64,000 bases of DNA from Pseudonocardia petroleophila (GCF_014235185.1 NZ_CP060131.1:4347501-4411500), one strand, 5' to 3'. Counted from the first letter of the stretch, positions 105 through 8,751 are shown. The notes: generated by a model from the letters alone, not told the origin. Program-made: numbers and translations.

Positions 105-120
105 TCAACGTATGTGTTGA
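105..120. promoter_or_regulatory. TCAAC-N6-GTTGA operator, copy 1
   Basis: Perfect inverted repeat TCAAC-GTATGT-GTTGA. It overlaps the TTGAAA (117-122) of the promoter proposed for the monooxygenase gene. The same 5-6-5 palindrome recurs at 3033-3048 and 3076-3091. Symmetry and spacing fit a TetR-type repressor; the TetR gene at 7383 is the obvious candidate, which is inference. Confidence 0.75.
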
Positions 121-145
121 AACCCTGGTCCGAGCCCAGTACGGT
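117..145 (+). promoter_or_regulatory. Promoter of the Baeyer-Villiger monooxygenase gene
   Basis: TTGAAA at 117-122 and TACGGT at 140-145 are separated by 17 bp. The GTG at 153 lies 7 nt after the -10 hexamer, so the transcript is probably leaderless. The -35 lies inside operator copy 1. Confidence 0.55.
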
Positions 146-152
146 CCCTCCT

Positions 153-1727
153 GTGACGCGTGACGTGGACGTTCTGGTCATCGGGGCGGGGTTCGCCGGG
201 CTGCGGACCCTGCACACGATGCGGGGGATGGGCCGCACCGTCGCCGTGCTCGAGGCGGGCGACGGGATCGGCGGGGTCTGGTACTGGAACCGCTATCCCG
301 GCGCCCGGTGCGACGTCGAGAGCTACGACTACTCCTACGCCTTCTCCGAGGAGCTGCAGCAGGAGTGGCGCTGGAGCGAGCGCTACGCCACGCAGCCGGA
401 GATCCTGCGCTACGTCGAGCACGTCGCCGACCGCTTCGACCTGCGCCGCGACGTGCACCTGGGCCGGCGCATGACCCGCGCCGAGCACGACGGGTCGCGC
501 TGGCGGGTCACCACCGAGACGGGCGAGGAGTGGTCGGGCCGCTGGCTGGTGATGGCCGTCGGCAACCTGTCGACGACGAAGGCCCCGGAGCTCCCGGGTC
601 AGGAGTCCTTCGCCGGCGAGATCCTGCACACCGCGCGGTGGCCGCACGAGGGCCGCGACCTGTCCGGGCAGCGCGTCGGGATCATCGGCACCGGCTCGTC
701 GGGCATGCAGATGACGCCCGTCGTGGCACGCGAGGCCGCGCACCTCACGGTCTTCCAGCGCACCCCGAACTTCTCCGTCCCGGCCGCCAACGCCCCGATC
801 GACGACGCCACCGACGCCGAGGTCAAGGCGACCTACGCCCAGCGCCGCGAGGCCGCCCGCAACTCGCCCAGCGGGCTGGGGTTCGTCCCGAGCAGGCTCT
901 CGGCGCTCGACGCCACCCCCGAGGAGCGCCGGGCCACCTACGAGGCGGCGTGGAAGCGGCTGGGCTTCGGCTTCGTGCTGGCCTACTACGACCTGATCCT
1001 CGACCAGGAGGCCAACGACACGGCAGCCGACTTCATCCGCGAGAAGATCGGTGCGCAGGTCGCGAACGCGGAGACCCGCGAGAAGCTCATGCCGCGCGGG
1101 TTCCCGTTCGGCACCAAGCGCCCGTCGGTCGACAGCGACTACTACCCGACCTTCAACCGCGACGACGTGACCCTCGTCGACGTCCGGACCGACCCGATCG
1201 AGCGCGTGACGCCGACCGGCATCGCGACGAAGAACGGCCACCACGACCTGGACGTGATCGTCCTCGCCACCGGCTTCGACGCCATGACCGGCTCCCTGCT
1301 CCGTCCGGAGATCGTCGGCAGGGACGGGCGGACGCTGCGCGAGCACTGGTCGGCCGGCCCGCGCACCTACCTGGGCCTGTTCGTCTCCGGCTTCCCGAAC
1401 CTCGTGATCATCGCCGGTCCGGGCAGCCCGTCGCTGCTGAGCAACGTGCTGCTCTCGATCGAGCAGCACGTCGACTGGCTGGCCGAGCTGATGGAGCACG
1501 TCGGTGACGGCACGGTGGAGGCGACCCCGGAGGCCGAGGATCGCTGGGTGGCCCACGTCAACGAGCGGGCCGCCGCCACCCTCTACCCCAAGGCGCGCAG
1601 CTACTACATGGGCGACGAGATCGAGGGAAAGCCGCGGGTGTTCATGCCGTACTCCGGTGGGGTGCGCGGCTACCGGCGGATCCTGGAGCAGGTCGTGGCC
1701 GACGGGTACGACGGGCTGAAGCTGTAG
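153..1727 (+). CDS. FAD-dependent Baeyer-Villiger monooxygenase
   Basis: Predicted cytoplasmic flavoprotein of 524 aa that would insert oxygen next to a ketone to form an ester or lactone, using NADPH and O2. The FAD Rossmann motif GAGFAG is near residues 11-16. The stretch GGVWYWNRYPGARCD is typical of cyclohexanone monooxygenases. The family fingerprint FxGxxxHxxxWP is present as FAGEILHTARWP near 153-164, followed by the NADPH-binding GTGSSG near 179-184. Length matches the family. A longer reading from GTG 114 is open, but that start lies inside the operator; the start at 153 follows a good promoter without a leader. Substrate is unknown; context suggests an alicyclic or terpenoid ketone. 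Confidence 0.9.
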   Translation: MTRDVDVLVIGAGFAGLRTLHTMRGMGRTVAVLEAGDGIGGVWYWNRYPGARCDVESYDYSYAFSEELQQEWRWSERYATQPEILRYVEHVADRFDLRRDVHLGRRMTRAEHDGSRWRVTTETGEEWSGRWLVMAVGNLSTTKAPELPGQESFAGEILHTARWPHEGRDLSGQRVGIIGTGSSGMQMTPVVAREAAHLTVFQRTPNFSVPAANAPIDDATDAEVKATYAQRREAARNSPSGLGFVPSRLSALDATPEERRATYEAAWKRLGFGFVLAYYDLILDQEANDTAADFIREKIGAQVANAETREKLMPRGFPFGTKRPSVDSDYYPTFNRDDVTLVDVRTDPIERVTPTGIATKNGHHDLDVIVLATGFDAMTGSLLRPEIVGRDGRTLREHWSAGPRTYLGLFVSGFPNLVIIAGPGSPSLLSNVLLSIEQHVDWLAELMEHVGDGTVEATPEAEDRWVAHVNERAAATLYPKARSYYMGDEIEGKPRVFMPYSGGVRGYRRILEQVVADGYDGLKL

Positions 1728-1731
1728 TCCG

Positions 1732-1762
1732 GGTGCGCGGGGACCCGGGGGCCCCGCGCACC
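1732..1762. terminator. Bidirectional hairpin between convergent genes
   Basis: Perfect 11-bp stem GGTGCGCGGGG / CCCCGCGCACC around a 9-nt loop, placed between the convergent stops at 1727 and 1765. There is no T-tract, as is usual in high-GC actinobacteria. Confidence 0.6.
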
Positions 1763-1764
1763 GG

Positions 1765-2955
1765 TCACGTCATCGACCCGGCGTTCCTGGCCTCCTGCTC
1801 CGCCTTGTGCTGCGCGGTGAACGCGTTGATCGCCTCCCACTGCTTGGCGGCGAGCGGGTCGCGGACGCTGCGGGTCCACGCCTCGTTGGCCAGCAGCCGC
1901 TTGGTCGTCCGCTTGAACACGGGCATCACCTCGTTGGCGAACAGGTGGTAGTGGTGCTGGGTCTCCTCCCACGGCGCCCAGTTGTGCGCGAACATCAGGT
2001 AGGCCCCGAACCCGCCCTGGCTCTGCTCCTCGAGCCGCTCGATCTGCTGGATCGCGTCGGCGGGGGTGCCGATGATGCCCATGCCCGACTCGATGACGAA
2101 GTCGATGCGCTCCCGGGTGTTCTCGCCCAGCACGCCGAGCTGGGGTGCGGCGGCGGTGTGCTGGAGGTAGTCGAACCAGGCGTCGATGCCGTGGGCGACG
2201 TCCCTGATCGCCTGGTCCTTGGTGTCGGCGATGTGCATCGGACCGACGAGCCGCCAGCCGTCGCGGCTGACGTCCTGGCCGAACTCCTTCGCCCGCTCCT
2301 CGACGACCGACCAGTGCATGCCGAGGGCGTCGAAGCCCTCCTGGCTCATGGTGGCACCGATGGAGATCATCCCGAGGCCGTGCTTGCCGACCAGGCGCGG
2401 CCCGGACGGCGAGACGATCGCGGCGGTGGCGATCTCCGGGTGCGGGTCGGAGTAGGCGTCCAACTGCAGCCGGGCCTCGACGAGCTTGTAGCGGCCGGTG
2501 TCGATGGAGATCGGCTCGTCGCTGCGCAGCAGGTGCATGAGGACGTCGACGTCGGTCTCCAGCGCCTTGCGGGCCTCCGCGGGGTCGAGGCCGAGCATGA
2601 TCGCGTCGGTGGCCAGCGCGCCAGGGCCGACGCCCATCATGGCGCGGCCGCGGGTGAGGTGGTCGAGCAGGATCAGGCGGTCGGCCACCAGGAACGGGTT
2701 GTGGTACGGCAGCGACAGGACGCCCGCGCCGAGCTTGATGTGCTTCGTGACCTGGGCGACGTGCGCGATGAACATCAGCGGGTCGCCGATCGGCTCGACG
2801 CCGCAGGAGTGGTGCTCGCCGAACCAGGCCTCGTCGAAGCCCATGCGGTCGAGCAGTTGCACGAGCTCGACGTCGCGCTGCAGGGAATAGGTCGGGTTCT
2901 GGCCGACGGGGACGTGGTGCGGGGGCAGGAAGATGCCGAAGCGCATGCGGGCCAC
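1765..2955 (-). CDS. LLM-class flavin-dependent monooxygenase, LimB-like
   Basis: Luciferase-like monooxygenase of 396 aa using reduced flavin. It has the GEHH motif early and a conserved block LPYHNPFLVADRLILLDHLT followed by RGRAMMGVGPGALATDAIML, which I associate with limonene 1,2-monooxygenase (LimB) type enzymes and close luciferase relatives. The GTG at 2955 has an AGGAG 5 nt upstream; the internal ATG at 2946 and a longer reading to 3036 are less well supported. It is divergent from the acyl-CoA operon and shares operator sites with it. It probably hydroxylates or epoxidises a cyclic substrate of the pathway; substrate assignment is inference. Confidence 0.82.
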   Translation of the reverse strand: MARMRFGIFLPPHHVPVGQNPTYSLQRDVELVQLLDRMGFDEAWFGEHHSCGVEPIGDPLMFIAHVAQVTKHIKLGAGVLSLPYHNPFLVADRLILLDHLTRGRAMMGVGPGALATDAIMLGLDPAEARKALETDVDVLMHLLRSDEPISIDTGRYKLVEARLQLDAYSDPHPEIATAAIVSPSGPRLVGKHGLGMISIGATMSQEGFDALGMHWSVVEERAKEFGQDVSRDGWRLVGPMHIADTKDQAIRDVAHGIDAWFDYLQHTAAAPQLGVLGENTRERIDFVIESGMGIIGTPADAIQQIERLEEQSQGGFGAYLMFAHNWAPWEETQHHYHLFANEVMPVFKRTTKRLLANEAWTRSVRDPLAAKQWEAINAFTAQHKAEQEARNAGSMT

Positions 2956-3007
2956 GAGGACTCCTCGAGTGGACTCGACGCCCGGCGGACAGCGGACGCC
3001 GCCTGTG

Positions 3008-3036
3008 ATGGTCGCCACTGGCAGGGTCGGTGTCAA
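3008..3036 (-). promoter_or_regulatory. Promoter of the LimB-like gene
   Basis: On the minus strand TTGACA (3036-3031) is followed after 17 bp by GACCAT (3013-3008). The -35 overlaps operator copy 2. The leader to GTG 2955 is about 45 nt and carries AGGAG. Confidence 0.5.
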
Positions 3037-3048
3037 CAGTGGGGTTGA
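3033..3048. promoter_or_regulatory. TCAAC-N6-GTTGA operator, copy 2
   Basis: Perfect inverted repeat TCAAC-AGTGGG-GTTGA overlapping the minus-strand -35 of the LimB-like gene. It lies 43 bp (start to start) from copy 3. Confidence 0.75.
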
Positions 3049-3059
3049 CGAGTCGGGCC

Positions 3060-3088
3060 TTGCGGGCGGCGAACGTCAACGTTAGCGT
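3060..3088 (+). promoter_or_regulatory. Promoter of the acyl-CoA operon
   Basis: TTGCGG (3060-3065), a 17-bp spacer and TAGCGT (3083-3088), with the GTG start 6 nt further at 3095. This predicts a leaderless mRNA. The -10 lies within operator copy 3. Confidence 0.55.
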
Positions 3089-3091
3089 TGA
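3076..3091. promoter_or_regulatory. TCAAC-N6-GTTGA operator, copy 3
   Basis: Perfect inverted repeat TCAAC-GTTAGC-GTTGA covering the -10 hexamer of the operon that starts at 3095. It shares the extended core GTCAACGT with copy 1. Confidence 0.75.
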
Positions 3092-3094
3092 TTC

Positions 3095-3859
3095 GTGCAT
3101 CCCCTGGTCGCACTGATGCGGCGGTTCGCGGTCGACTGGCTCGGCCGGGCCGACCCGTCGGCCTGCGCCGAGATCATGGATCCGGGCTACGCGATCCTCA
3201 TCGGCGGTCACACCCTCGACGGCCGCGACGACGCCTACATCCCCGGCACCCTGGCCCAGCTGCGGCGCTTCCCCGGGCTGCTGCTCTCGGTGCAGGACCT
3301 GTGGACCGACGGGGAGCGCGTCGCGCTGCGCTTCACCGAGCACGGCCCGTCCGAGGCCGACGGCGGGCAGCCCGCGGCCTGGACCGGCATCGGGCTGTTC
3401 GACTGGAACGGCACCCGGCTCACGCGCAACGTCACCGAGGAGGACTACCACTCCCGGCGCCGCCAGCTCGCCGAGCGCGCGAGCGACCCGGTCGAGTCGC
3501 CGGCCCCCGCACCGTGGGCGGCGCAGCCGGAACCGGCCGACCCGGCGGCGGAGAGGTCGGTCCGCGAGTGGCTGGCCGCGGGCGACCTCGCCCCCGCCGT
3601 CCTCGACGACGGCTGGACCGGACGGCCGACCCCGCCGCTGCTCGACGTCACGCGGGTCGAGGTGGGGGAGCTGTTCTCGGCCGGCCCGCGCGTGGCGTTC
3701 CAGGCGGTGCAGCACGGCCGGTACCTCGGCGGGCTGCCCGGGACGCAGGGGCGCGAGGGCCGGGAGGCGAGCATGAGCGTCGTGGGCATGGTGGGTCCGG
3801 ACGGCCGCGGTCGCGTGGTGCGCGACCGGGTCGGCCTGCGCCGGGCGGTGCGCGCGTGA
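3095..3859 (+). CDS. Tandem NTF2/SnoaL-like protein
   Basis: Protein of 254 aa with no clear catalytic signature. The first half (about 1-125) reads like a SnoaL/NTF2-type fold: a DYAILIGG-like strand after the first helices, then the block ending in FDWNGTRLTRNVTEEDY. A Pro/Ala-rich linker (about 135-155) leads to a second, similar half. This fold includes limonene-1,2-epoxide hydrolase, ketosteroid isomerase and dehydratases. It is the first gene of the operon, and its end overlaps the dehydrogenase start by 4 nt. The operon lacks an enoyl-CoA hydratase, so a hydratase or epoxide-hydrolase role is possible but unproven. The leaderless GTG start follows from the promoter at 3060-3088. Confidence 0.65.
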   Translation: MHPLVALMRRFAVDWLGRADPSACAEIMDPGYAILIGGHTLDGRDDAYIPGTLAQLRRFPGLLLSVQDLWTDGERVALRFTEHGPSEADGGQPAAWTGIGLFDWNGTRLTRNVTEEDYHSRRRQLAERASDPVESPAPAPWAAQPEPADPAAERSVREWLAAGDLAPAVLDDGWTGRPTPPLLDVTRVEVGELFSAGPRVAFQAVQHGRYLGGLPGTQGREGREASMSVVGMVGPDGRGRVVRDRVGLRRAVRA

Positions 3860-4701
3860 GCGGGGCCGTGGGGGTCGTCGGGGGCGGCACCATGGGCATC
3901 GGGATCGCCTACGTGTTCGCCACCGCCGGGTTCGCCACCACCGTCGTCGAGCCCGACGCCGGGCGGCGGGCCGGGCTGCGCGGCGACCTGGTGGAGCGGG
4001 CGCGCCGCGGCGTCGAGCGGGGGAAGCTCACGGCCGACCGGGCCGGGGCGCTGGACGGGCTGCTGCACGTCGTCGACGGGGTGGGGGAGCTGGCGAGCGG
4101 GCTCGACGTCGTCGTCGAGACGGTGCCGGAGCAGGCCGCGCTCAAGGCCGAGGTGCTGGCGGCGGTCCAGGAGCGCGTGCCGCGGCTGCTCGCGACCAAC
4201 ACCAGCGCCCTGTCCGTCGACGGGCTGGCGGCCGGCCTCGCCCGCCCCGAGGCGTTCCTCGGCATGCACTTCTTCAACCCCGTGTGGTCGCTGCCGCTCG
4301 TGGAGATCGTGCGGGGCGCGGCCACGTCCGACGCGGCGGTCGCCACCGCCCGGGAACTGTCGGGCGCGATCGGCAAGGAGTCGATCGTGGTCCGCGACGT
4401 GCCCGGCTTCGCGACGAGCCGGCTCGACAACATCGCCGCGTTCGAGGCCATGCGGATGCTCGAGGAGGGCGTCGCCGGCGCGGAGGACATCGACCGCGCC
4501 GCCGTGCTGGCCTACGGCCACCCGATCGGACCGCTGCGGCTGTCCGACGTGGTGGGCCTCGACGTCCGCCTGGACATCGCCCGTCACCTCAGCACCACCT
4601 ACGGCGAGCGCTACGCCCCGCCCGCGATCCTGGAGACACTGGTGGCGCGGGGCGACCTGGGCCGCAAGACCGGGCGCGGGTTCTTCGACTGGGAGGTCTG
4701 A
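3856..4701 (+). CDS. 3-hydroxyacyl-CoA dehydrogenase
   Basis: NAD-dependent enzyme of 281 aa oxidising L-3-hydroxyacyl-CoA to 3-ketoacyl-CoA. The N-terminal dinucleotide motif is GGGTMGIG (near 10-17). The catalytic blocks ATNTSALSV and GMHFFNPVWSLPLVEIV are present, and the C-terminal helical domain ends in DLGRKTGRGFFDW. Length fits the PaaH/FadB2-like single-domain class. GTG 3856 overlaps the previous stop by 4 nt, and its own stop overlaps the next ATG by 1 nt, so translation is probably coupled. Confidence 0.9.
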   Translation: MSGAVGVVGGGTMGIGIAYVFATAGFATTVVEPDAGRRAGLRGDLVERARRGVERGKLTADRAGALDGLLHVVDGVGELASGLDVVVETVPEQAALKAEVLAAVQERVPRLLATNTSALSVDGLAAGLARPEAFLGMHFFNPVWSLPLVEIVRGAATSDAAVATARELSGAIGKESIVVRDVPGFATSRLDNIAAFEAMRMLEEGVAGAEDIDRAAVLAYGHPIGPLRLSDVVGLDVRLDIARHLSTTYGERYAPPAILETLVARGDLGRKTGRGFFDWEV

Positions 4702-5882
4702 TGGCTGTGTCGTCAACCGGTGACGGGATCGTGCGCGACGCGCTGCTCACCGAGACCGAGGAACGCCGAGCGCTGCGCGAGGCCGTCGGCAAGCTCGTCG
4801 GGAGCTTCGGGCGCGAGTACTTCCAGGAGGTCACGCGCGCCGGTGAGAAGCCCGACGCGCTGTGGTCGGAGATGGGGAGGGCCGGGTTCCTCGGCGTCGC
4901 CATCCCCGAGGAGCACGGCGGCGGCGGGGGCGGGCTGGAGGACCTCGCGCTCGTCATCGAGGAGACGGCGGCGCAGGGCTGCCCGATGTTCATGCTGGTG
5001 ATCTCGCCGGCCATCGCGGGCTCGCTGCTGGTGGCCCACGGGTCCCCGGCGCAGCAGGCGCAGTGGCTGCCCGGCATCGCCGACGGCACGAAGAAGGTCT
5101 GCTTCGCGATCACCGAGCCCGACGCGGGCACGAACACCCACAACATCACCACCACCGCGCACCGCGCCGACGACGGTGGCTGGCGGCTGCGGGGCCAGAA
5201 GTACTGGACGTCCGGGATCGACGAGGCCGACGCCGTGCTCGTCGTCGCCCGGGACGCCGACAGCGGCAGGCCGTCGCTGTTCCTGATCCCGACCGACGCC
5301 CCCGGCCTGACCTGGCAGAAGATCGACTCCGCGCTGCAGATCCCGGAGAACCAGTACACGACGTTCTACGACGACGTGCCCGTCCCCGCCGACGGCATCG
5401 TCGGCGCGGAGGGGGCGGGACTCAAGGCGATGTTCGCCGGGCTCAACCCCGAGCGCGTCACGGCGGCGGCGCAGGCCAACGGCATCGCCCGCTACGCGCT
5501 CAAGCGCGGGGCGCGCTACGCCAGCGAGCGCACCGTCTGGTCGACGCCGATCGGCGCGCACCAGGGCATCTCCCACCCGCTGGCCAAGGCCTACATCGAG
5601 GTGCAGCTCTCCCGCCTGATGACCCAGCACGCCGCGCAGCTCGCCGACGCGGGCGCCGAGGCGGGGGAGGCGGCCAACATCGCCAAGTACTCCGCGGGCG
5701 AGGCGGCCGTCGCCGCGCTCGACCACGCCATCCAGATCCACGGCGGCAACGGCCTGTCCCACGAGTACGGGCTGTCCGACCTGTGGTTCACCGCGCGGAT
5801 GTTCCGCACCGCGCCGGTGAGCAAGGAGATGGTGCTCAACCACGTCGCCCAGCACAGCCTGGGCCTGCCGAAGAGCTACTGA
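4701..5882 (+). CDS. Acyl-CoA dehydrogenase
   Basis: FAD enzyme of 393 aa for alpha,beta-dehydrogenation of an acyl-CoA. Recognisable blocks are CFAITEPDAGTN (flavin and substrate binding), KYWTSGIDEADAVLVVARD, and IQIHGGNGLSHEYGLSDLWF near the C-terminus. The Glu in HEYG is at the position of the catalytic base of medium-chain enzymes, judged by eye. The start overlaps the dehydrogenase stop by one base. It feeds the 3-hydroxyacyl-CoA dehydrogenase once a hydratase has acted; no hydratase gene of the crotonase type is in the cluster. Confidence 0.9.
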   Translation: MAVSSTGDGIVRDALLTETEERRALREAVGKLVGSFGREYFQEVTRAGEKPDALWSEMGRAGFLGVAIPEEHGGGGGGLEDLALVIEETAAQGCPMFMLVISPAIAGSLLVAHGSPAQQAQWLPGIADGTKKVCFAITEPDAGTNTHNITTTAHRADDGGWRLRGQKYWTSGIDEADAVLVVARDADSGRPSLFLIPTDAPGLTWQKIDSALQIPENQYTTFYDDVPVPADGIVGAEGAGLKAMFAGLNPERVTAAAQANGIARYALKRGARYASERTVWSTPIGAHQGISHPLAKAYIEVQLSRLMTQHAAQLADAGAEAGEAANIAKYSAGEAAVAALDHAIQIHGGNGLSHEYGLSDLWFTARMFRTAPVSKEMVLNHVAQHSLGLPKSY

Positions 5883-5883
5883 C

Positions 5884-7353
5884 ATGACGCTCGGCGCCCT
5901 CCTCTCCTCACTGGCCTCGGACCGGCCGGCGATCACCTGCAACGGCCGGACGATCACCTTCGCCGAGCTCGACGCCCGTGCCTCGCAGGTCGCGCACGCC
6001 CTGGTCCGCGACGGCGTGCGGCCCGGTGACCGCGTCGCGGTGCTGACCCGCAACCGCACCGAGTGGTTCGAGCTGCTGTTCGGGGCGGCGCGGGCCGGGG
6101 CGGTGCTGGTCGGGCTGAACTGGCGGCTGGCCCCGCCCGAGATCGCGGCGATCGCCGCCGACGCGGCGCCCGCGCTGGTGCTGGCGGGTTCCGCGGAACG
6201 CGCCCTGCTGCCGTCCGGGTTCCGGGTGGTCGACCTCGACTCCGACCACGAGGCCTGGATCGCCGGGCTGCCCACCACCCCGCCCGCCGTGCCGGTCGCC
6301 GCCGACGACGTCGTGCTGCAGCTCTACAGCTCCGGCACCACCGGCCTGCCCAAGGGCGCCCGGCTCACCCACGCCAACCTGCTGTTCACCCCGCGGATGG
6401 GGGCGACGGCGTACGGGATGTCGGCGGCGAGCGTGAACCTGCTGGCCTCGCCGCTGTTCCACATCGGCGGCACCGGCTACGGGCTCACCACGCTGGGGCT
6501 CGGCGGCCACACGATCCTGATGTCGGAGGTCGTGCCGTCCGCGATCGCCGCCGCGATCGAGGAGCACGGCGTCACGCACGCGTTCTTCGTGCCCGCGGTG
6601 GTGCAGATGCTGCTCGATGCGCCTCCCGGGCCCGACCTGTCGTCGCTGCAGGTCATCGCCTACGGCGGCGCGCCGATGACCGAGGCCCTGCTGAAACGGG
6701 CGATCGGGGTGCTCGGGTGCGCGTTCCTCGGCGTCTACGGGATGACGGAGACGGCGGGCAGCGTCACCGCGCTGGCGCCCGCCGACCACGACCGCCCCGA
6801 GCTGCTGCGGTCCGTCGGCCGGGCCCTGCCGTGGCACGAGGTGGCGGTGTTCGACCCGGTCACCGGGGACCCGTCGCCCGTGGGGGAGGTGGGGGAGATC
6901 CGGGTGCGGTCGGGGCAGAACACCGTCGGCTACTGGAACCGCCCGGCCGAGACCGCCGCCACCCTGACCGCCGACGGCTGGCTGTGCACCGGCGACGCCG
7001 CCTACGCCGACGCCGACGGCTACCTGTTCCTGCACGACCGGATCAAGGACATGATCATCTCGGGCGGGGAGAACATCTACCCCGCCGAGGTGGAGAACGC
7101 GGTCGCCGGCGCGCCCGGCGTGGCCGACGTCGCCGTGATCGGGGTGCCGAGCGAGCGGTGGGGGGAGACGGTGAAGGCGGTGGTCGTCCCCGCCGACGGC
7201 GCCACCCCGACGGCGGAGGACGTCATCGCCTACGCCCGCACCCGGCTGGCCCGCTACAAGTGCCCCACCAGCGTCGACTTCGTCGACGCCCTGCCCCGCA
7301 ACGCCAGCGGCAAGATCCTCAAGAGGACCCTGCGCGCCCCCTACTGGCCCTGA
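5884..7353 (+). CDS. Acyl-CoA ligase (AMP-binding)
   Basis: Adenylate-forming enzyme of 489 aa that would activate a carboxylic acid to its CoA thioester with ATP. The P-loop-like motif SSGTTGLPKGA is near 148-158, GVYGMTETAG lies mid-protein, followed by TGD and the hinge region DRIKDMIISGGENIYPAEVE. The catalytic lysine is in NASGKILKRTLR at the C-terminus. Length suits the short/medium or aromatic acyl-CoA synthetase class. It starts 2 nt after the acyl-CoA dehydrogenase stop. It probably activates the acid formed after ring opening. Confidence 0.9.
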   Translation: MTLGALLSSLASDRPAITCNGRTITFAELDARASQVAHALVRDGVRPGDRVAVLTRNRTEWFELLFGAARAGAVLVGLNWRLAPPEIAAIAADAAPALVLAGSAERALLPSGFRVVDLDSDHEAWIAGLPTTPPAVPVAADDVVLQLYSSGTTGLPKGARLTHANLLFTPRMGATAYGMSAASVNLLASPLFHIGGTGYGLTTLGLGGHTILMSEVVPSAIAAAIEEHGVTHAFFVPAVVQMLLDAPPGPDLSSLQVIAYGGAPMTEALLKRAIGVLGCAFLGVYGMTETAGSVTALAPADHDRPELLRSVGRALPWHEVAVFDPVTGDPSPVGEVGEIRVRSGQNTVGYWNRPAETAATLTADGWLCTGDAAYADADGYLFLHDRIKDMIISGGENIYPAEVENAVAGAPGVADVAVIGVPSERWGETVKAVVVPADGATPTAEDVIAYARTRLARYKCPTSVDFVDALPRNASGKILKRTLRAPYWP

Positions 7354-7382: not shown

Positions 7383-8030
7383 ATGACCAGCGGCATCGGC
7401 AGGCGGCGCGCGGCGGCCCGGGACGAGGGCGGCGCCGCCTACCGGGAGCGCCGGACGGAGATCGTCGCGGCGGCGGCGGCGATGTTCAAGCGCAACGGGT
7501 ACCGCGGCACCAAGCTCGCCGACGTGGCCGAGGCGATGGGGCTGGACCGGGCCTCCCTCTACTACTACGTCGGCAGCAAGGAGGAGCTCTTCCAGGACGT
7601 CGTGGGCGGCGCGGTGGAGGCCAACGCCGACGCCGCGGAACGCATCCTCGCCGGTCCGGGGACGGCGCCGGAGAAGCTGCGGGCCCTGATCGTCGGCCTG
7701 ATGGTCAGCTACGCGGAGGCCTATCCCTTCCTCTACGTCTACATCCAGGAGAACCTCGGGCCCGGCACCCGCGACCGGTCGGCGTGGGCGCGGGAGATGG
7801 CGCGGCACAACAAGCGCTACGAGAACGCCGTGGTCGCGATGGTGCAGGCGGGCGTCGACGAGGGGAGCCTCGCCGTCGGCACGCAGCCGTGGGTGGTGGC
7901 GTTCGGGGTGATCGGGATGGTCGCCTGGTCCAACCGCTGGTTCGACCCCAACGAGAGCACCGTGTCCGCCGCCGAGATCGGCTCCGCCTACGCCGACACG
8001 CTGCTCAACGGCCTGATCACGCGCGGGTAG
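7383..8030 (+). CDS. TetR-family transcriptional regulator
   Basis: Protein of 215 aa. An N-terminal helix-turn-helix spans about 22-66 (RRTEIVAAAAAMFKRNGYRG, then TKLADVAEAMGLDRASLYYY), a classic TetR DNA-binding domain, followed by an all-helical ligand domain. It is the last regulator in the operon that starts at 3095, so it is probably autoregulatory. It is my candidate for binding the three TCAAC-N6-GTTGA sites. The ligand is probably a CoA thioester or a pathway intermediate. A weak -10-like CATACT lies 6 nt before the ATG, so internal transcription is possible. Confidence 0.88.
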   Translation: MTSGIGRRRAAARDEGGAAYRERRTEIVAAAAAMFKRNGYRGTKLADVAEAMGLDRASLYYYVGSKEELFQDVVGGAVEANADAAERILAGPGTAPEKLRALIVGLMVSYAEAYPFLYVYIQENLGPGTRDRSAWAREMARHNKRYENAVVAMVQAGVDEGSLAVGTQPWVVAFGVIGMVAWSNRWFDPNESTVSAAEIGSAYADTLLNGLITRG

Positions 8031-8040
8031 GGTGCCGCTC

Positions 8041-8751
8041 GTGCCCGCCACGACGATCCCCGGTGCCACCACGGTCAGCTCCCTGGAGGCCCACCTCGCC
8101 GTCCCGGCGGGCGAGGGCCCGTGGCCCGGCGTGGTCGTGGTCCACGAGGCGTTCGGCCTCAACGACGACACCCGCCGCCAGGCCGACCGGCTCGCCGCGG
8201 CCGGCTACCTCGCCGTGGCGCCGAACCTGTTCGGGGCGGGCGGGGTGCGCTGCCTGCGCGCCACCTTCTCGGCGATGCTCGCGGGCGAGGGCCCGGCGTT
8301 CGGCGACATCGAGGCCACCCGCACCTGGCTGGCCGGGCACGTCGACTGCACGGGCCGCGTCGGGATCATCGGGTTCTGCCTCGGCGGCGGGTTCGCGCTG
8401 GGCGCGGCCTCGCGCGGGTTCGACGCCGCCGCCCCCAACTACGGGCGCCTGCCCCGCAACGCCCGGGAGATCCTGGTCGGCGCGTGCCCGATCGTCGCCA
8501 GCTACGGCGGGTCCGACCCCACGCTCCGCGGGGCGGCCGGGAAGCTGGAGTCGCTGCTCACCGAGCTCGACGTCGTCCACGACGTGCGGGAGTACCCCGG
8601 CGCGGGGCACTCGTTCCTCAGCACGGTCGAGGGTCCGGCCGCGTCGCTGATGAAGGTGGTCGGCCTGGGGCCGCACCAGCCGTCGGCCGACGAGGCCTGG
8701 GCCCGGATCCTCGCCTGGTTCGACACGCACCTGCGGCGACCCGCGTCCTGA
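8041..8751 (+). CDS. Dienelactone hydrolase-family enzyme
   Basis: Alpha/beta hydrolase of 236 aa. The Glu of HEAFGLND, the nucleophile Cys in GFCLGGGFA, the Asp in YGGSDP and the His in GAGHSF match the dienelactone hydrolase layout. It could open a lactone such as that made by the upstream Baeyer-Villiger enzyme. GTG 8041 is preferred over GTG 8032: TAGGGT lies 7 nt upstream as a possible -10, and AGGG can serve as ribosome-binding site, while 8032 has no space for one. It follows the TetR gene directly. Confidence 0.85.
   Translation: MPATTIPGATTVSSLEAHLAVPAGEGPWPGVVVVHEAFGLNDDTRRQADRLAAAGYLAVAPNLFGAGGVRCLRATFSAMLAGEGPAFGDIEATRTWLAGHVDCTGRVGIIGFCLGGGFALGAASRGFDAAAPNYGRLPRNAREILVGACPIVASYGGSDPTLRGAAGKLESLLTELDVVHDVREYPGAGHSFLSTVEGPAASLMKVVGLGPHQPSADEAWARILAWFDTHLRRPAS

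Follow-up and report, generated by a model that had tools for sequence, protein, structure and literature searches.

A palindrome at a Baeyer-Villiger gene cluster of Pseudonocardia petroleophila is the predicted operator of a TetR-family regulator with relatives in distant bacteria

We analyzed a stretch of 64,000 nucleotides (nt) from Pseudonocardia petroleophila (NZ_CP060131.1:4347501-4411500), in the following called the window, i.e., C1:4347501-4411500 of the 6.49-Mb contig. At its left end lie genes for a type I Baeyer-Villiger monooxygenase, a luciferase-like monooxygenase (LLM), an operon for acyl-coenzyme A (acyl-CoA) metabolism and a TetR-family regulator (7383-8030). Among them the palindrome TCAAC-N6-GTTGA is found as three candidate operators, O1 to O3. 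The features are as follows, in window coordinates.

105-120, no strand: candidate operator O1, TCAACGTATGTGTTGA; exact match, upstream of the Baeyer-Villiger gene
117-145, plus: presumed Baeyer-Villiger promoter, TTGAAA 117-122 and TACGGT 140-145, read by hand
153-1727, plus: type I Baeyer-Villiger monooxygenase (Pfam; PDB sequence comparison)
1765-2955, minus: luciferase-like (LLM) flavin monooxygenase (Bac_luciferase PF00296, E 4.6e-41)
3033-3048, no strand: candidate operator O2, TCAACAGTGGGGTTGA; exact match, divergent LLM/SnoaL promoter region
3060-3088, plus: presumed acyl-CoA operon promoter, TTGCGG 3060-3065, 17 base pairs (bp), TAGCGT 3083-3088, by hand
3076-3091, no strand: candidate operator O3, TCAACGTTAGCGTTGA; exact match, over the acyl-CoA operon's presumed -10
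3095-3859, plus: SnoaL_2-domain protein, acyl-CoA operon gene 1 (PF12680)
3856-4701, plus: 3-hydroxyacyl-CoA dehydrogenase (PF02737/PF00725)
4701-5882, plus: acyl-CoA dehydrogenase (PF00441/PF02770/PF02771)
5884-7353, plus: AMP-binding acyl-CoA ligase (PF00501/PF13193)
7383-8030, plus: TetR-family regulator, proposed binder of all operators (PF00440, PF17932)
8041-8751, plus: dienelactone-hydrolase-family protein (PF01738)

An exact pattern search of the whole window returned these three copies of the palindrome and no further one, as a sequence-only reading of this DNA had noted. Exact sites in the window were expected at 0.00 from 100 dinucleotide shuffles and at about 0.014 from pentamer frequencies, and the latter predict about 1.4 exact sites per genome of such size. 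With up to two mismatches allowed, 16 matches were observed in the window versus 6.4 expected; most of the degenerate two-mismatch matches were chance sites of the TCGAC/GTCGA type. Genome-wide distribution was also tested by pattern search. The whole genome (6.49 Mb, one contig) holds four exact sites, three at this cluster and one outside the window, at an Old Yellow Enzyme (OYE) gene, whereas a reversed control pattern had no match in the same 6.49 Mb. Random scatter of the motif, which the sequence-only reading had named as speaking against a common regulon, was hence not what we found, since the sites cluster at the TetR locus.

The centres of the TCAAC and GTTGA arms are 11 bp apart, i.e., one helical turn. 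Both half-sites therefore face the same side of the helix, an arrangement to be expected of TetR-family dimers. O2 and O3 are separated by 43 bp or 4.1 helical turns. From the end of O1 it is 32 bp to the Baeyer-Villiger start GTG 153, and only 3 bp separate the end of O3 from the GTG of the SnoaL gene. In the hand reading, TAGCGT 3083-3088 ends 6 bp ahead of GTG 3095, and the acyl-CoA operon transcript is likely to be leaderless from this codon. A presumed element of the LLM gene, TTGACA, was read by hand at 3036-3031 on the minus strand.

The fourth exact site (C1:5169093-5169108) lies about 40 bp upstream of the ATG of the OYE gene, 0.82 Mb distant from the TetR cluster. The nearest solved relatives of the OYE protein are xenobiotic reductase A structures. 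Its gene neighbours, named by eye, are an alpha/beta hydrolase, a second flavin-monooxygenase and a sigma-54-type activator gene. Site position thus supports a predicted regulon that takes in this remote OYE gene besides the window genes.

We compared the locus within a genus sample of 60 genomes, six of which, besides the source genome (G000), have orthologues of the TetR protein (73-95% identity). The five congeners with TetR at 73-82% and the SnoaL gene at 69-82% all have exact sites at the cluster. These stand ahead of the Baeyer-Villiger gene in G036, G037, G039 and G058, so that the O1 position is kept in four species, in the SnoaL/LLM region in G006, G036, G037 and G039, ahead of the acyl-CoA dehydrogenase gene in G039 and G058, and ahead of a divergent enoyl-CoA hydratase/ligase pair in G036, G037 and G039. 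Site pairs resembling O2/O3 are 53-54 bp or 5.1 turns apart in G036 and G037, and G006 has the O3 16-mer unchanged at the orthologous position (L081:2118). Across the congeners the N6 bases change and the TCAAC/GTTGA arms stay constant. The sequence-only reading had proposed that the sites join the Baeyer-Villiger and luciferase-like genes with the acyl-CoA operon, and their conservation before these genes bears this out.

Neither a tetR nor a SnoaL gene alone predicts the sites, as no exact site was found near TetR paralogues of 36-42% identity in the same genus (L084-L086, L091, L092) or near SnoaL homologues of about 50% identity in genomes without this TetR (L087-L090). G009 is a clean case of cluster loss. 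TetR is kept there at 95% with its two downstream neighbours, the cluster from the Baeyer-Villiger to the ligase gene is missing (L083), and no exact site is left at the tetR locus. The single exact site of the whole G009 genome lies 40 bp upstream of the OYE orthologue and differs in its N6 from that of G000. OYE orthologues (84-94%) in G002, G005, G047 and G048, all without this TetR, have no site; in G005 only a degraded half-site is present. In three genomes, G000, G036 and G037, tetR comes after the operon that it presumably controls. In G006, G009 and G058 tetR does not immediately follow the ligase gene, and there it is preceded by one-mismatch sites at distances of 63, 119 and 134 bp, respectively. 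These three are unlikely to be chance hits because one-mismatch sites occur in G000 at a rate of about 1 per 74 kb.

Distant relatives were collected with a TetR-alignment genome scan, which gave 79 named loci, and from 399 genomes of the order, 13 of which had homologues. In 90 distant loci (1.54 Mb, TetR identity 37-66%) we found 200 exact N6 sites, spread over 74 loci, compared with 0-6 sites for each of the other spacings from N0 to N14 and 1.8 expected. With the congeners included, 80 of 97 loci have at least one exact site and 68 of 97 at least two. Several of the site-less loci hold one-mismatch variants, e.g., five in Dactylosporangium and six in Jiangella. The extended consensus is G-TCAACR-N4-YGTTGA-C, and C follows TCAAC in only 3% of the cluster sites. 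Sites are distributed over the TetR tree in both Actinomycetota and Pseudomonadota. One locus, L129, is on a contig whose label reads Klebsiella pneumoniae metagenome-assembled genome; its TetR groups tightly with uncultured Gammaproteobacteria, and the contig is probably mislabelled or contaminated.

We counted 52 exact sites in nine whole genomes from the order; 43 of these sites are no more than 25 kb away from a tetR homologue, and four of the nine outlying ones have the form TCAACC-N4-GGTTGA. Four annotated plasmids carry 14 sites, 13 of them between genes, although intergenic DNA makes up only 18%. The plasmid sites precede genes for acyl-CoA dehydrogenase, NAD(P)/FAD-dependent oxidoreductase, TetR, MFS transporter, P450, LLM and TonB receptor. 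Downstream reading frames were grouped, with each group's function taken from one Pfam-scanned representative. Counted by loci, the first gene downstream of a site belongs to the Baeyer-Villiger/flavin-monooxygenase group in 43, to tetR in 27, to AMP-binding ligase and acyl-CoA dehydrogenase in 18 each, to enoyl-CoA hydratase in 17, to short-chain dehydrogenase and 3-hydroxyacyl-CoA dehydrogenase in 11 each, and to LLM, TonB receptor and alpha/beta-hydrolase in 10, 8 and 7. In 29 of 97 loci an exact site lies at most 300 bp upstream of tetR. Thus the sites co-occur with this TetR, and no other regulator that we found here goes with them from species to species; the sequence-only reading had named the same protein as the probable one. 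The distribution supports the view that the putative operator is not strain-specific and belongs to a broad TetR subfamily.

The 7383 protein scored above cut-off for the TetR_N helix-turn-helix (PF00440, E 6.3e-13) and for the all-helical C-terminal domain that binds the ligand (PF17932). Its AlphaFold model (pLDDT, predicted local distance difference test, 87.3) has the TetR fold with matches up to Z 22.1. The nearest folds are KstR2 (2ibd, Z 22.1; 4w1u, Z 21.0) and PfmR (3vpr, Z 21.7), followed by AibR with isovaleryl-CoA and DNA (5k7z) at Z 18.6 and, at far lower rank, EthR (5mym) at Z 15.1. The protein is not recognized as KstR by NCBIfam (NF033703, 21.9 bits versus a cut-off of 280; no KstR2 model is listed), nor was any EthR chain among the PDB sequence matches at 1e-6. 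Ahead of the DNA-binding domain there is an N-terminal SGIGxRR extension (window 7383-7450), in which R8 and R9 are invariant in 54 sequences. Speculatively, this arm might contact the minor groove.

We consider it very probable that the TetR protein 7383-8030 has the three palindromes as its operators and that it represses the promoters of the cluster and of the OYE gene. Such a circuit of TetR repressor and operator is of an ordinary kind in its mechanism; TetR binding, repression, inducer and pathway are what we infer. A TetR dimer would read the TCAAC/GTTGA arms and, when bound, would shut off the Baeyer-Villiger, luciferase-like and OYE genes and the acyl-CoA operon at their promoters. 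The tetR gene starts 29 bp past the ligase gene, hence it is probably within the operon it controls, and from this position at the operon end TetR would control its own synthesis. TetR would leave the DNA in response to an intermediate of the pathway, most probably an acyl-CoA thioester formed by the operon's ligase. An inducer of this type is a first guess, since CoA thioesters are the effectors of KstR2 and AibR, which are among the closest folds. The pathway may run from enone reduction through Baeyer-Villiger oxidation, ester or lactone hydrolysis and CoA activation to beta-oxidation; a cyclic or terpenoid ketone as substrate is a guess. Beyond this locus, we regard as moderately probable a broader claim, i.e., that a hitherto undescribed cross-phylum TetR subfamily (SGIGxRR arm, DRASLYYY recognition helix) with the near-invariant operator G-TCAACR-N4-YGTTGA-C marks genome-wide Baeyer-Villiger-centred catabolic islands in Actinomycetota and Pseudomonadota, plasmids included.

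Several observations weigh against these assignments. A consensus promoter scan finds no promoter at threshold for the sites, so that of the earlier proposal that each site sits on a predicted promoter core only plausible, hand-read elements stand, and the promoter assignments are inferences only. In G000 there is no site directly ahead of tetR. The suggestion of an acyl-CoA type inducer comes from fold similarity. Among the 97 loci, 17 have no exact site. Moreover, recognition-helix peptides served as probes in the scan, and the sample hence favours relatives sharing DNA specificity, which limits how far the rule linking site and TetR can be extended.

As an alternative, TetR could bind the sites but serve there as activator or as dual regulator, or it could sense a non-CoA ligand such as a ketone or lactone. 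Some TetR proteins do activate, FasR being a named activator, and some sites overlap a -35 instead of a -10 element. Also EdcR, a TetR of oestrogen breakdown, senses free steroid (PMC8700777). Against this, the location of O3 over the presumed -10/start region fits repression, and the closest folds, KstR2, PfmR, AibR and FadR, are all regulators of acyl-CoA or fatty-acid metabolism. We hold this alternative to be improbable, at perhaps a minor share of the likelihood, and it fares best among those considered.

It is quite unlikely that the sites serve another local regulator, of the IclR family or of ArsR type, with TetR as a bystander. An IclR-family gene does lie at L005:9633-10460, about 2 kb upstream of the window, but it was not found at other species' clusters, and we rejected it as the regulator for this lack of conservation. 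ArsR-family genes with SRPBCC partners in the same genus have tandem TCAACC-N4-GGTTGA sites with the common half-site. The cluster sites, however, are nearly never TCAACC and do not adjoin ArsR genes; ArsR was rejected because the tandem version stands ahead of the ArsR/SRPBCC genes instead. In 18 further congeners lacking this TetR, paired exact sites were mostly of the ArsR kind and no non-ArsR site cluster was present. Sites track TetR homologues across phyla, and in G009, with TetR kept and the cluster lost, a site still marks the OYE gene. Finally, although lone copies may be chance at the expected genomic rate, we rejected chance or a structural feature without regulatory role as virtually excluded by the empty shuffles, the genome count, the positions conserved while N6 changes and the spacing controls (200 N6 sites versus at most 6).

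Many species of the genus have tandem TCAACC-N4-GGTTGA sites, 29-46 bp apart, ahead of ArsR-family genes that come with SRPBCC/AHSA1 partners. These sites belong to a separate regulator with the same half-site.

L051-L054, L058, L064, L066, L067, L072, L096, L098, at ~1501 and 1530-1547: ArsR-type tandem sites

The 16-mer TCAACCGATGAGTTGA is identical in at least five genomes (L069:1501; also G001, G014, G057 and G235). In G037 it is found behind a cation-transporter-like gene, close to an ArsR-like gene, and it is possibly a third site type.

Turning to the cluster genes, the Baeyer-Villiger protein has steroid and phenylacetone monooxygenases as closest solved relatives (E ~1e-186), and its frame is best begun at GTG 153, not at GTG 114 within O1. 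The luciferase-like protein, labelled LimB-like in the sequence-only reading, can be placed only as a member of the Bac_luciferase family. The dienelactone-hydrolase-family gene still adjoins tetR in G009 and may be co-transcribed with it; its operon membership is uncertain. Just upstream of the window (L005:6728-10460), the IclR-family gene lies by CoA-transferase, acyl-CoA dehydrogenase and luciferase-like genes, as assigned by eye, which suggests an adjoining second catabolic cluster.

TetR repressors with palindromic operators are thoroughly known. KstR2, the closest fold to the 7383 protein, controls acyl-CoA catabolic genes of the lower cholesterol pathway in actinobacteria, and we take both proteins to be in the same C-terminal Pfam family, TetR_C_24. 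However, KstR2 shares only about 22-24% identity with the 7383 protein and has another gene set, and its operator, AnCAAGnnCTTGnT, differs from TCAACR-N4-YGTTGA in arms and spacing. The KstR2 effector is a CoA thioester (PMC8700777). AibR and PfmR are alike in fold and in regulating acyl-CoA metabolism, but have low sequence identity (29% for PfmR 3vpr). In mycobacteria, EthR-EthA and Rv0078-Rv0077c (EthR2-EthA2) likewise consist of a TetR repressor controlling a monooxygenase gene, and EthA is a Baeyer-Villiger enzyme. The EthR motif is larger, occurs in multiple copies and is not a simple palindrome (PMC4482099), and the Rv0078 site comprises 21 bp bound by two dimers (PMC6016246); as described, both differ from TCAAC-N6-GTTGA. 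BkaR (keto-acid) and EdcR (oestrogen) are also TetR repressors of catabolic operons with palindromic promoter operators. These, GTTA(N)T(N4)A(N)TAAC for BkaR (PMC3920632) and TnnCnnTACnAnTnGTAnnGnnA for EdcR (PMC8700777), differ from the site found here. No paper in the open literature that we searched describes this operator, and subfamily and operator appear undescribed there; subscription journals were mostly outside our scope and an earlier description is possible.

The wide spread of this TetR subfamily and its operator is their main interest. If our reading is true, one short DNA word and one regulator type would delimit regulons for ketone- and terpenoid-type degradation in many genomes, and distant members like the OYE gene would be recognizable too. 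Baeyer-Villiger clusters, few of which have a known mode of control, would gain a regulator, and the repressor-operator pair would be a ready biosensor part for products of Baeyer-Villiger pathways. As the half-site is common to bacteria from actinobacteria through sphingomonads, its specificity would be directly testable in very few experiments.

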